A stretch of 64,000 bases of DNA from Acidobacteriota bacterium (GTDB lineage Bacteria; Acidobacteriota; Terriglobia; Bryobacterales; Bryobacteraceae), in NCBI GenBank assembly GCA_025350695.1, contig JANXXI010000338.1:1-64000 (forward strand), read 5' to 3'. Below the pieces are notes generated by a model. The model saw only the letters and a list, made by a program, of their open reading frames with translations. It had not been told where the DNA came from and made no database searches. The translations under genes and the position numbers were made by a program. Shown here piece by piece: positions 1 to 6,500 of the stretch (the first letter of the stretch is position 1; every line of letters starts with the position of its first letter).

Positions 1-110
1 TCCAAGTCTAATGTAGTGTCCCGATTTCCCTCAGCCCAAGCCGCTTGAACATCCAAATCGAACAAAATGTCTAACGAAGGAATTCCAAATTGAAGTTCAT
101 TGGTTATCAT
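1..110 (-). CDS. Partial hypothetical protein running off the left edge (MITNELQFGIPSLDILFDLDVQAAWAEGNRDTTLDLG...)
   Basis: Open minus frame from ATG at 110-108 to the window edge, starting just after the stop of the upstream ATPase ORF (112-114), so probably co-transcribed; not in the ORF track because it is truncated. Confidence 0.45.
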   Translation of the reverse strand, partial: MITNELQFGIPSLDILFDLDVQAAWAEGNRDTTLDL

Positions 111-111
111 A

Positions 112-1434
112 TTACTTGCCTTCCAGATCTAAACTTAGAGCTTTTTTCCTCAGCCTCTTGAATAGCAGCTCTCGGCTGAAAATGATTGTTTTTATTCTCG
201 TCTTCTCCTTATCCGAAGCTAAATCGAATCGATCATTCAACCGGATCTCTAACGGTCGCACAAGAACGTCTGTGTCACTATACCCTTTGTGAAGGTTGTG
301 GACAAACCATAGCCTACCAAGGCTGCTGTATTGGTTTTGATAGTTGGTGGGGTTGTTCGGAACAATAGCAGATAAGCCATCCGAAGTTAACGCGTGCGGG
401 CCGTTCCCATACCTCCTCCAAAGGGTTGGCATAAGTGCAGTGAATTTTTCTTCTCCGATTTCAATCGTCTCGCTTCGCAAATGTACCAACGCAAGAATTC
501 GATCCATGATGTAACTACGCTTTGCTGGAGTGTCTGCCTCAGTTGCTTTTAGTATCTTGCCCATTGCTTCTGGGAGCGAACCTGCGTGCGCAGTTGTAAA
601 TACAAGGTATCCCATTCCTGCGCATTCAAGAAGTTCCTTCCAATCCTCATTTTTCCTCGTCTCTCCGACAAAGAGGATTTCCGGTGTTTGCCGAAGCGAG
701 TCGTGGATGACTTCGCTTAGGCTTGTCGCGTCTATCGGATATTGTCGGGGTGTATAGTCAATTGACTCTCTAGCCTTTGCCTCCTGATCATCTTTTGGAG
801 GCACTTCCCAGAACTTTTTTTCGATCGGATCTTCAAAGGTAATGAGGTGAGGTTTTCGGGGATTGGGAGATGCAGACGTGCTACCAAGTTGAGTTACCCG
901 TCGCTTCAGTTGTTGATAGATCATTCCTCTTGTAACAAGACTCTTCGATGAATTTGTTGAACCGGTTATTATTACAATCCCGTGCTCACGCTCGTTTTGA
1001 AAAACCAGAGATCTCAATGCTTCGCAAATGTCATTAATTGAAAAAACTCCATACTCGTAAGAACTGCTGGGCGTGAATGCTTTGGACTCTGGAAGAGGAC
1101 TTACACAAGAATAATCGAGGCCGCTTGTTGGAGTTGAATCGGCGCGTACCGTAAAACTCCAGCGTTGCCCTGCAAAACACTTGCATGCCAATACTCTTCC
1201 AGAATTCTGCTTGCCGTTATTCAAATGACTCAACGAAACTTGAAACTCGTAGGATGACTTGGCTTTGGTCTCAAGTTCAGCTTTTGCCCACAAATGAAGC
1301 TGACTTTCCAAGTCACTTGGCCAAGATGTAGCAGAAAGCTCAGCGGCAGCGTCTCTATAGAAGGTGAAATCTGTCGTTTTGTAGACTGAATCCTCAGAAA
1401 AAACATTTATGGTTGGGAGCATTGAATTCGGCAT
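112..1434 (-). CDS. PilT/VirB11-like secretion or retraction ATPase (GSPII_E-like), divergent
   Basis: ITGSTNSSKS (Walker A position), LITFEDPIE (Asp-box-like), SLRQTPEILFVGETRKNEDWKELLECAGMGYLVFTTAHAGS (Walker B/His-box region like PilT 'LRQDPDVILVGEMRD..TG.LV..TLHT'). Confidence 0.7.
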   Translation of the reverse strand: MPNSMLPTINVFSEDSVYKTTDFTFYRDAAAELSATSWPSDLESQLHLWAKAELETKAKSSYEFQVSLSHLNNGKQNSGRVLACKCFAGQRWSFTVRADSTPTSGLDYSCVSPLPESKAFTPSSSYEYGVFSINDICEALRSLVFQNEREHGIVIITGSTNSSKSLVTRGMIYQQLKRRVTQLGSTSASPNPRKPHLITFEDPIEKKFWEVPPKDDQEAKARESIDYTPRQYPIDATSLSEVIHDSLRQTPEILFVGETRKNEDWKELLECAGMGYLVFTTAHAGSLPEAMGKILKATEADTPAKRSYIMDRILALVHLRSETIEIGEEKFTALMPTLWRRYGNGPHALTSDGLSAIVPNNPTNYQNQYSSLGRLWFVHNLHKGYSDTDVLVRPLEIRLNDRFDLASDKEKTRIKTIIFSRELLFKRLRKKALSLDLEGK

Positions 1435-1493
1435 ATAAATATGAAAAGAAGTTAAAGTGCTGAAAGTTTATCACAAATAATACCGCATTGGGT

Positions 1494-1521
1494 CTGCTCG
1501 AAACCCACTGCTCGAAACCCA
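1494..1521. repeat. Perfect 2x14 bp tandem duplication CTGCTCGAAACCCA
   Basis: Read directly: ctgctcgaaaccca ctgctcgaaaccca. Confidence 0.9.
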
Positions 1522-1530
1522 TGAGGATTA

Positions 1531-1567
1531 AACAACAAAAACGGCCGCTCCCCTTTCGGGAGCGGCC
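1531..1567 (-). terminator. Rho-independent terminator downstream of the groEL relic
   Basis: Perfect 10-bp stem GGCCGCTCCC/GGGAGCGGCC (1543-1552/1558-1567); minus-strand continuation is GTTTTTGTTGTTT. Confidence 0.8.
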
Positions 1568-1595
1568 CGGCTTCAACACACAAACTAAAAACTAC

Positions 1596-2355
1596 TTAGT
1601 AATCCATACCGGGGCCGTGATCACCACCCCCGCCAGCCGGAGCAGCCTTCTTCTCTGGAATCTCGCAGATCATTGCTTCCGTCGTCAGCATCAATGCGCT
1701 GATTGAAGAAGCGTTCTGCAGAGCAGTCCGGGTCACCTTCGTAGGATCGATGACGTCAGCCTTTACCAGATCTTCATAAACACCCGTAGCTGCGTTGAAA
1801 CCGTTACATCGGGTTCTTTTCAGCACGGATCTTTTCGACGATGATTGCGCCTTCATGACCGGCATTACCGGAAATTTGACGGCAGGGCTCTTCGCAAGCG
1901 CGGCGGATGATGTCAATACCAATCTGCTCATCACCAGTTCTCTTTACGTCTTTCAGAGCGATTGCGGCACGCAGCAGAGCCACGCCACCACCAGGAACAA
2001 TCCCTTCTTCCACAGCCGCGCGCGTTGCATGCAGAGCATCTTCCACACGAGCCTTCCTTTCCTTCATTTCCGTTTCCGTCGCAGTTGTCCGAAAGCCCGT
2101 CAGTGTGGCCTTTACTTCATAGGTGCCAGACGGCAACGCAGGGGCGATAAAGATTCCGGATGCATCGGATCGCACTGTGCGCGAAGTACCTGTTTCCTTG
2201 TCCGCCTTCCCCACCTCAACGTTAGGAATCACTGCCCCCGATTCGTCCATCACGGTTCCGGAAATAGTGCCGGTGGGTGCTCGCGAATATGCGCCTCCAG
2301 CCGCTAGCAACAAGGCTGCCGCAACTACGAGATGAAATTTTCCGCTAATTTTCAT
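1596..2355 (-). pseudogene. Chimeric relic: signal peptide + carboxypeptidase-regulatory domain (TonB-receptor N-terminus) joined in frame to a GroEL C-terminal fragment, then frameshifted
   Basis: ORF 1804-2355: [21 protein letters not shown]...[20 protein letters not shown]...[15 protein letters not shown] joined to [40 protein letters not shown] (GroEL). The GroEL tail continues in another frame: [45 protein letters not shown]...[12 protein letters not shown] to the stop at 1596. Confidence 0.9.
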
Positions 2356-2775
2356 TTTGTCCTCTTTCTTCTCGCGAAGGGAATTCTATACCGCAACGCG
2401 TCATAAGACATGCAGATCCCTTATTGAAAGAAGGTCAAGAAAACTATCCTTCCCTCTATGCGGCCCATCGAACGCCCAGCAACGTTTCATTGCAACTTAG
2501 CTGGATGCTATAACTGTTCGGGCTCCCTGTCAAGCGAAAACGACTGGGAAAAATTTGCTAGTGGCGGGAACTGCTACCGTGGACCAGGCCGATGCCTGAC
2601 TGAGAACAAAGGTCAATTCGTGGGAAAATTTATCTCTGGCCATTGTCCACGCAGCACCGATGGTATTCAAAAGACCAAAAGGGTAGCGGCGGTTCAGAAC
2701 ACAAATTATGACCTACTGCTTTGGTAGGATTCCAGATACTCCATGCCCCCCACCATCAGTTAAAATGTATTCTAG

Positions 2776-3910
2776 ATGACCATCGAAGAACTTGAAAGAG
2801 CCTACGGGACGCTTCGGCAGCAGGCAACTGCTGTGCGGAGCTATCTTTGACGCCCCAGCCAAACTCCGCGAACTAGCCAAAACTGAGGAAGCCATCTCCG
2901 ATCCAGCCTTCTGGAACAGCCCGGAACAGAGCCAAAAAATCATGCAGGAGCGCAAGCGCCTGGAAAATTCCATCGCCGAAGAAAAGAAGGTGGCGGGCAT
3001 GACGGAGGACCTGGACACCCTGTTCGAGCTTGGCAAAGAGGGCGAGAATGTCACCGGCGATATTGAACGGGACATGAAGATCCTTTCCGTTTACGTTGAA
3101 AAACTGGAAACGGGCATGTTGCTTTCTGAAGAGAATGATCGCTTATCGGCGATCCTCAACATTCACCCCGGCGCGGGTGGCACCGAAAGCCAGGATTGGG
3201 CGGAGATGCTGATGCGCATGTATATGCGCTGGGCCGAACGCAGTGGGTTTCCGTGTAACGTCACCGATTTGCTGGAAGGCGAGGGCGCGGGCATCAAGTC
3301 GGTCACGCTTGAGATTGAAGGCGAGAATGTTTATGGGCTGCTGAACTCGGAAATCGGCGTGCATCGGCTGGTGCGTATTTCTCCATTTGATTCGGCGGCG
3401 CGGCGGCATACTTCGTTCGCATCCGTGTTTGTGATTCCGTTGATTGACGACGACGTGAAGATCGAGATTAAGCCGGAAGACATTCGCGTGGATGTCTTTC
3501 GAGCCTCGGGAGCCGGGGGGCAGCACGTCAATCGGACGGAATCGGCCGTTCGTATGACGCACCTTGCGACGAACATTGTGGTGCAGTGCCAGAATGAAAG
3601 GTCGCAACACAAGAACCGGGCCAGTGCGTTGAAGCAGCTTCGGGCGCGGCTCTATGAACACGAGATGGACAAGAAGCGCGCGGCCGACAGGAAGCTGGAA
3701 GATACCAAGATGGGCATCAACTTCGGCAGCCAGATTCGCAGCTATGTGCTGGCGCCGTACCGCATGATTAAGGATCATCGTACCAAGCTTTCCATTGGCG
3801 ATGTGGACCGTGTGCTGGACGGCGACATTGGCGGGCTGCTGCACGCTTTCCTCGTCTTCCGCAAGACGGGTAAGACGGCGGGCGACGGTAAGGATGACCT
3901 CGACGTCTAA
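2776..3910 (+). CDS. prfB: Peptide chain release factor 2, expressed through a programmed +1 frameshift
   Basis: ATG at 2776 (MTIEELERAYGTLRQQATAVRSYL), then CTT TGA C at 2845-2851; the +1 frame continues DAPAKLRELAKTEEAISDPAFWNSPEQ...GGT-type HPGAGGTESQDWAEMLMRMY, SGAGGQHVNRTESAVRMTH. Confidence 0.97.
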
Positions 3911-4826: not shown

Positions 4827-5390
4827 TTACTCTTCATCCAATTGCGCGAAGAGACCGATGAAATCTACAGTCATGCTTAACCCTGCGGACTGGAACGTAG
4901 GCTTTTGCCCGATGCATTCCACCGCTCTTCCATTGACCACCTCGTATAGGATGCGCGCTCGTGGATCGGCTATCCAGATGGTGGAAACTCCCATGGCCGC
5001 ATAATCATCGCACTTTCGGATGGTTGGCTCTAGGCGGTCATCTGGCGATAAGATTTCAATGACCAAGATTGGTGGGTCTAAGGTGACAGGTGTCTTACGG
5101 TGTCCGGCTTCAAGAACGCATACGTCGGCGATACGGTAACGCCGCACGCTGTCATCGCCACCTCGAACGCGGACTCGCTGTTCCACCATCGCTCGAAATT
5201 TGACCCCATAAACTTCTCTTAGACTGTTGAGATGCATCGCCAAAAGGCTTTGAAGCAGACTATGAAAATATTCGCCCACATTGCGCTTCACGATGCACCC
5301 ATCGACGTATTCACAATCGGGCTCGTAAGACTTTCCGAGGTATTCTTCTAGCGGAACTAATGCGGCGACGCCCATACCCTCATAGTACAC
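4827..5390 (-). CDS. Uma2 family (DUF820) putative restriction-endonuclease-fold protein, intact
   Basis: LVPLEEYLGKSYEPDCEYVDGCIVKRNVGEYFHSLLQ...RIADVCVL...PPILVIEILSPDDRLEPTIRKCDDYAAMGVSTIWIADP. Confidence 0.9.
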   Translation of the reverse strand: MYYEGMGVAALVPLEEYLGKSYEPDCEYVDGCIVKRNVGEYFHSLLQSLLAMHLNSLREVYGVKFRAMVEQRVRVRGGDDSVRRYRIADVCVLEAGHRKTPVTLDPPILVIEILSPDDRLEPTIRKCDDYAAMGVSTIWIADPRARILYEVVNGRAVECIGQKPTFQSAGLSMTVDFIGLFAQLDEE

Positions 5391-5871: not shown

Positions 5872-6416
5872 CCGATTTTGCCATCGAGACTTCCGGGCTT
5901 CGGAAATCTTTCAAGGGACAAGCTGCGTTAGCGGGTTTGACATTCGCCGTGCCAAAGAGTAGCGTCTACGGATTCTTAGGGCGGAACGGCGCCGGAAAAA
6001 CCATTACCATTCGAGTTCTAATGGGTCTGGCGAAAGCCGACGCAGGATCGGCGCGTTTTGGGACTATGCCCAGGCGGCGGCAAAGCTGGGGTCGATCTCC
6101 GGCGGCGAATCGGCTACGTAACCGAAGACAAAGAACTCTACCATATATGACCGTCGATGAGATCACTCGTTTCACGCGGCCATTTTTTCCGGGTTGGCGC
6201 AGCGACTTGGAGCAGAGATACCGGAAAGTGTTTGACCTGCCCTTGAATAAAAAGATTCCTAATCTCTCGAAGGGCATGCGTTCCAAGTTGATGCTATTGC
6301 TTGCGATCTCACGCGGGGCGGAACTCCTTATCCTGGACGAACCCACGGACGGTCTGGACCCAGCCGCCGTGGAAGACGTCTACTCGCCGCCGGCTGGAAC
6401 TCCCATGGCCTCGTAA
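5868..6416 (+). pseudogene. ABC transporter ATP-binding protein: internal compensating indels and truncated C-terminus
   Basis: GFLGRNGAGKT, LSKGMRSKLMLLLAISRGAELLILDEPTDGLDPAAVEDV. The segment at about 6058-6145 reads properly only in another frame (LCPGGGKAGVDLRRRIGYVTEDKELYH); homology stops after AAVEDV. Confidence 0.85.
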
Positions 6417-6500
6417 CCATCGCACTTTTCGGATTGTAGGTTCCAGGCGGTCATCTGGCGATAGGACTTCATTAACCAAGATTGGCGAGTTTTCAACCCA
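6386..6500 (-). pseudogene. Uma2 (DUF820) internal fragment
   Basis: Plus-strand sequence parallels the intact uma2 at about 4978-5070: 'aactcccatggcc..gtaaccatcgcactttt cggat..ggttccaggcggtcatctggcgata.ga.ttca.taaccaagattgg'. Minus translation gives ILV.EVLSPDDRLEPTIRK. Confidence 0.85.

Follow-up and report, generated by a model that had tools for sequence, protein, structure and literature searches.

A receptor-groEL fusion in an Acidobacteriota genome as the probable left border of a two-gene cassette acquired horizontally, with nested direct repeats

Insertion with long target duplication was reportedly first described by Nobusato et al. in 2000. Such insertions are described for restriction-modification systems (PMC3031569, PMC1643837, PMC4978471 and PMC3154945). 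Staphylococcal phage-inducible islands, exemplified by SeCISE48, carry an integrase, and their attachment (att) site overlaps with the 18 bp at the end of groEL (PMC8125051), while homologous recombination in conserved flanks has been proposed for the core defence hotspots cDHS1/2 of P. aeruginosa (PMC10250203). In the present work, a window of 64,000 nucleotides from an Acidobacteriota genome (G000), which runs from base 1 of contig C212 and thus starts at a contig end, was found to contain an open reading frame fusing the start of a receptor gene to the tail of groEL. This fusion probably marks the left border of a cassette of two genes that would have been acquired horizontally and would be flanked by nested direct repeats.

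The fusion ORF (1804..2355, minus strand) encodes 183 amino acids. Codons 1-91 of a TonB-dependent receptor (2355-2082, minus strand), corresponding to its signal peptide and carboxypeptidase-regulatory-like domain, continue without a change of frame into the 3' end of a groEL gene (2082-1596), as the original prediction had proposed, and the switch between the two BLAST matches was located at 2082, where a single base (G) is common to both. On the receptor side, the stretch 2082-2552 corresponds to the beginning of a full 1,068-aa receptor gene on another contig, C301, together with its upstream region; on the groEL side, 2082-1577 matches a groEL 3' end, also on C301. The identities, 98% over 327 bp for the receptor and 91% over 506 bp for groEL, are far beyond chance. 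The groEL relic, hereafter R2 (1596..2082, minus strand, about 500 bp), runs from residue ~386 to the stop; the window thus holds the end of GroEL (Cpn60) and not its full-length frame, and this end is itself interrupted. The predicted frame break near 1800 was indeed found, as one extra A (about 1805, within 1804..1806) introduces an in-frame TAA stop into groEL at TGTAACGG, versus TGTACGG in C301 and TGTATGG in the sister species G001, and the GroEL part of the fusion ORF, from residue ~386, ends there as ...EKNPM*. Past the break, the groEL frame ends normally at 1596 and is followed by a strong intrinsic terminator of the groEL type (1567-1543, minus strand; hairpin with a 10-bp stem and a T tail), in agreement with the proper C-terminus and terminator that had been recognised earlier. 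The earlier observation holds in all the details that the assembled sequence allows one to check.

The intact receptor gene of C301 (3263-6469) encodes a Pfam CarboxypepD_reg domain followed by an outer-membrane barrel, while the window contains its first 91 codons only (2082..2355, minus strand), as a copy of C301 L041:3263-3536. One synonymous and five non-synonymous changes separate this fragment from its C301 parent (dS 0.014), which indicates a young and unconstrained copy. The duplicated segment extends upstream of the gene: the direct repeat R1, made of the receptor 5' end and upstream region (2082..2578, minus strand), has its second copy, R1', at C301 L041:3045-3536 (~490 bp). The coding parts of the two copies are 98% identical, and the upstream parts are much more diverged, with gaps, a discrepancy that weighs against the insertion model proposed below and would call for two source alleles or for gene conversion. 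A promoter-like site (TTGACA-17-TAGCAT; 2505..2533, minus strand) is present in both copies, as a match to the consensus that is no more than expected by chance in the region. The G000 genome is rich in receptor paralogues, with >100 places encoding receptor N-termini of the CarboxypepD_reg type.

The fusion ORF has retained a start codon, a signal peptide and the promoter-like site, and the frame was kept across the junction, as would be expected if the fusion produced a functional new exported protein combining the secreted domain of the receptor with a GroEL-derived tail. This is nevertheless highly improbable, considering that one joining in three would be in frame by chance, that the groEL frame breaks off at codon 183, that non-synonymous changes outnumber synonymous ones five to one in the receptor part, and that searches of relatives gave no homologue of the fusion. 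Truncation by the frame break, relaxed selection and absence from relatives indeed indicate that the fusion ORF is probably a by-product, a non-functional junction relic that is most likely junk, and the fusion protein itself is probably unimportant.

The original prediction had proposed either a real illegitimate recombination event or an assembly chimera. The part that stands is illegitimate joining, with one common base at the junction. In a chimera, misjoined repeats would have created a receptor/groEL junction that is absent from the cell; the genome contains the groEL and the receptor sequences two times each, in a fragmented assembly (391 contigs, 4.8% contamination) with a contig end nearby, all of which would favour such an error. 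It is unlikely all the same, because the switch occurs at one common base and not within a long repeat, because, with the genome rated 100% complete, no other contig provides a source for the groEL part (9% off C301) or the receptor part (2% off) of the window, and because the terminator kept behind R2 is lost in the C301 copy. No contig carries the window's variant of groEL or of the receptor continuing intact.

The groEL sequences on either contig do not appear to be native to this genome. R2 is 91% identical both to the C301 copy, R2' (L041:2497-3014), and to the groEL of G001, and the three 3' ends are roughly equidistant (dS 0.27-0.31); as amino-acid changes are few, most of this divergence arose in functional groEL genes. 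When resident genes were compared with those of G001, dS reached 0.90 for the N-terminal part of groEL (C22), 1.11 for groES and 1.50 for prfB. As these values are far above those of R2 and R2', both tails come from donors near G001 and not from the resident groEL. An intact groEL of the same genome had been expected as a point of comparison for the relic; the resident gene is in fact divided between contigs C22 and C142, and these pieces, far more distant from R2, were rejected as the parent of the relic. At the resident groEL 3' end on C142 (L043, positions 1-3300), synonymous sites are nearer to those of G005, a genome of another genus, than is the case for the N-terminal part, and this end is possibly another 3'-end replacement. 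It is followed by genes for a 577-aa protein, whose N-terminus weakly matches the PADLOC candidate PDC-S60, and for a PIN-domain protein.

Between the groEL terminator and the contig end, the window carries a cassette whose GC content is 45%, versus 56% in the rest of the window. Its first gene (112..1434, minus strand, 440 aa, GC 45%) encodes a PilT/T2SSE-like ATPase, and its second, KaiC-like gene is represented by the N-terminus (1..110, minus strand) of a protein of about 1,290 aa in its whole form, cut by the contig end. The ATPase scored 50.9 bits against the PilT family, far below the cut-off of 319.1, which places it outside that family, and 37.2 against the broad Pfam T2SSE model, above the cut-off of 24.9. 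TFEDPIE and THAGS-like motifs are kept, and Walker A is altered to GSTNSSKS in the window copy. In two other genomes of the same family, G188 and G022 (L113:4809-9634 and L114:1-4556), an ATPase of this kind, 38% identical to that of the window, is directly followed by a single KaiC-like gene, which is its partner there rather than pilus genes. The KaiC-like domain forms the N-terminal part of a big protein, which reaches 1,287 aa in G188, while in G022 the contig stops within it.

The 36 codons at 110-1 match the N-terminus of this KaiC-like protein, a match that is weak when taken alone (E about 0.001-0.005). C301 starts inside an 820-aa ORF, open at its 5' side, and continues with the groEL 3' end (2497-3014), an upstream region and the intact receptor; the 820-aa ORF matches the KaiC-like protein of G188 and G022 from residue ~508. 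These N- and C-terminal matches argue strongly that C212 and C301 hold the two halves of one gene and would join across a gap of ~470 codons, or ~1.4 kb, for which no bridging contig exists in the assembly. The joining is supported by an order-wide search, in which the C-terminal half of the gene was found as a single copy in G000. Were C301 and C212 derived from two related strains that had been binned together, R1/R1' and R2/R2' would be alleles and not repeats, a view to which the contamination of 4.8% and the differences of 2-25% between repeat copies lend some weight. We consider this unlikely, as the two contigs complement each other as halves of one rare gene, without overlap, and as alleles would keep the order of the modules, which is here permuted.

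Clear matches to the cassette were restricted to G000, G022 and G188, a patchy distribution. No wider relatives were found in genome contigs, searched with peptide patterns, in viral contigs or in plasmids, and a sample of the phylum gave nothing beyond generic KaiC; phage matches were of the generic PilT-like kind. No PADLOC model matched the window cassette, AbiL included, and the large KaiC-like protein had no match in PADLOC, PHROG or plasmid searches. Flanking direct repeats were looked for around the cassettes of G188 and G022, and none was found. The readable cassette genes include no transposase or integrase, ~1.4 kb of the insert being unread. A defence role, suggested by size, low GC and setting, is a guess, and the PilT-like/KaiC-like pair constitutes an uncharacterised two-gene unit.

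On the other side of the fusion, the left chromosomal flank is formed by prfB (peptide release factor 2; 2776..3910, plus strand), and homology to G001 begins exactly at its ATG. An apparent RF2 programmed +1 frameshift site, CTTTGAC, was noted in this gene (2776-2860), the ATG frame stopping at TGA and the long ORF continuing in the next frame. Further on, an 88-bp segment (6398-6485), located where a truncated ABC-transporter ATPase ORF ends, is an 86% identical copy of part of a Uma2-like gene at 4827-5390, which constitutes another small duplication of a gene fragment. No tRNA and no Rfam match were found in the window. The receptor gene does not adjoin prfB in six relatives. A clean empty site was not found: G001 has no insert at prfB, but no close receptor copy was found in that genome. 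This counts against the insertion model.

From a mechanistic point of view, the two junctions, the two pairs of repeats, the gene split between C212 and C301 and the donor-like groEL sequences can be read directly on the contigs. Once these are joined, the full order would be prfB, R1, R2 with its terminator, the ATPase gene, the KaiC-like gene, R2' and R1' leading into the intact receptor, and the inserted genes would thus be flanked by two pairs of long direct repeats, R1/R1' (~490 bp) and R2/R2' (~500 bp). The original prediction of a lone capture of a groEL end by an unrelated exported N-terminus does not account for this arrangement, in which both modules recur in permuted order on C301, compared with the window, and flank a two-gene cassette; we count this permutation in favour of insertion. 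The most likely route and order of events would comprise two steps. In a donor near G001, an incoming groEL 3' end carrying the cassette would first have crossed once with groEL, leaving groEL tails on both sides of the cassette in a layout like those of G001 and G010, described below. A second event, at the receptor gene, would then have placed R1 on both sides of the block. The cut receptor start would from then on have read into groEL, and the one-base insertion and relaxed selection would have followed. A simple tandem duplication of the groEL tail and receptor start was also considered; it gives the right junction, but leaves the terminator and the different flanks unexplained.

Parallel arrangements of groEL, cargo and groEL were found within the family. 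In G001 (L105, C38, 1-4300), AbiLii and AbiLi, an RloA/RloB-like pair (PADLOC E = 3.6e-16 and 2.2e-84, respectively), come after an intact groEL with its terminator; next to them lies a groEL fragment, which shares 98.8% identity with the G001 groEL over 162 bp and runs off the contig. In G010 (L142, C26, 2750-3840), groEL and its terminator precede a DUF433+DUF5615 pair, which looks like a toxin-antitoxin pair, and a groEL fragment covering residues 314-416. In G139 (L151, C98, 3457-7278), a shrunken and internally deleted relic of the groEL 3' end lies away from the groEL of that genome; its last 191 bp are 98% identical to that gene, and it is located ~1.8 kb from an AAA_21/DUF4276 pair. 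The layouts of G001 and G010 are rare, since none of the 59 other regions downstream of groEL surveyed in the family contained a groEL copy within 5 kb, these 59 relatives having a single groEL end and no combination of cargo and copy. Many apparent groEL fragments in the family survey corresponded to contig ends. As the 59 regions contained varied genes and no groEL copy, the idea that the region downstream of groEL is a family-wide defence hotspot was not supported.

The outer boundaries of the groEL fragments vary from case to case, which fits homologous or illegitimate events and no fixed site. A common fixed att site in groEL had been considered, as the fragments of the window, C301 and G001 appeared to begin at the same base, and was rejected because their true starts differ. 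A site-specific island, that is, an integrase-borne element with its attachment site in groEL that would have displaced the groEL 3' end, has a precedent in the staphylococcal islands of the SeCISE48 type, which enter the 3' end of this gene (PMC8125051), and could account for a groEL end followed by its own terminator in the window. It is very unlikely here: the cassettes of G000, G001 and G010 contain no integrase, as far as they are readable, the duplicated part measures ~500 bp and is not an 18-bp att overlap, and the fragments start at different residues (about 314, 346, 374 and 386). It may also be tentatively imagined, from three cases, that in this family the groEL 3' end serves as a travelling homology arm, small defence-like cassettes passing from species to species with this tail attached, docking in groEL through recombination and later taking the tail along to further loci; such a generalisation appears doubtful.

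If the insertion of a cassette between nested repeats is the correct reading, what appeared as a chimeric gene would become a readable record of a foreign gene pair entering a chromosome with no evident recombinase. The nested repeats and donor-like groEL tails would moreover provide testable footprints of recombination-driven cassette movement outside restriction-modification systems.

Compared with described systems, the locus resembles the core defence hotspots cDHS1/2 in that conserved genes lie beside changing defence cargo with no single type of mobile element (PMC10250203); by contrast with these hotspots, for which scarless exchange was proposed, partial copies of flanking genes are present here and the site is not consistently occupied. 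As with SeCISE48, accessory genes have landed at the 3' end of groEL (PMC8125051), but the locus described here involves ~500 bp of groEL, variable fragment starts and no integrase in the readable part. The AbiL pair, in which the AbiLi ATPase is associated with the AbiLii/RloB partner, is clearly matched by the cassette of G001, while that of the window is unrelated to it. The closest known phenomenon would be insertion with long target duplication, the present rearrangement being probably of this known kind, with another cargo. As in those insertions, defence-like or selfish genes would be bordered by long direct repeats of host sequence, variable in extent, with no transposase or integrase evident in the genes that can be read; unlike in the cases so described, the cargo is a PilT-like/KaiC-like pair, the repeat pairs are apparently nested, their copies have diverged and no empty site was found.
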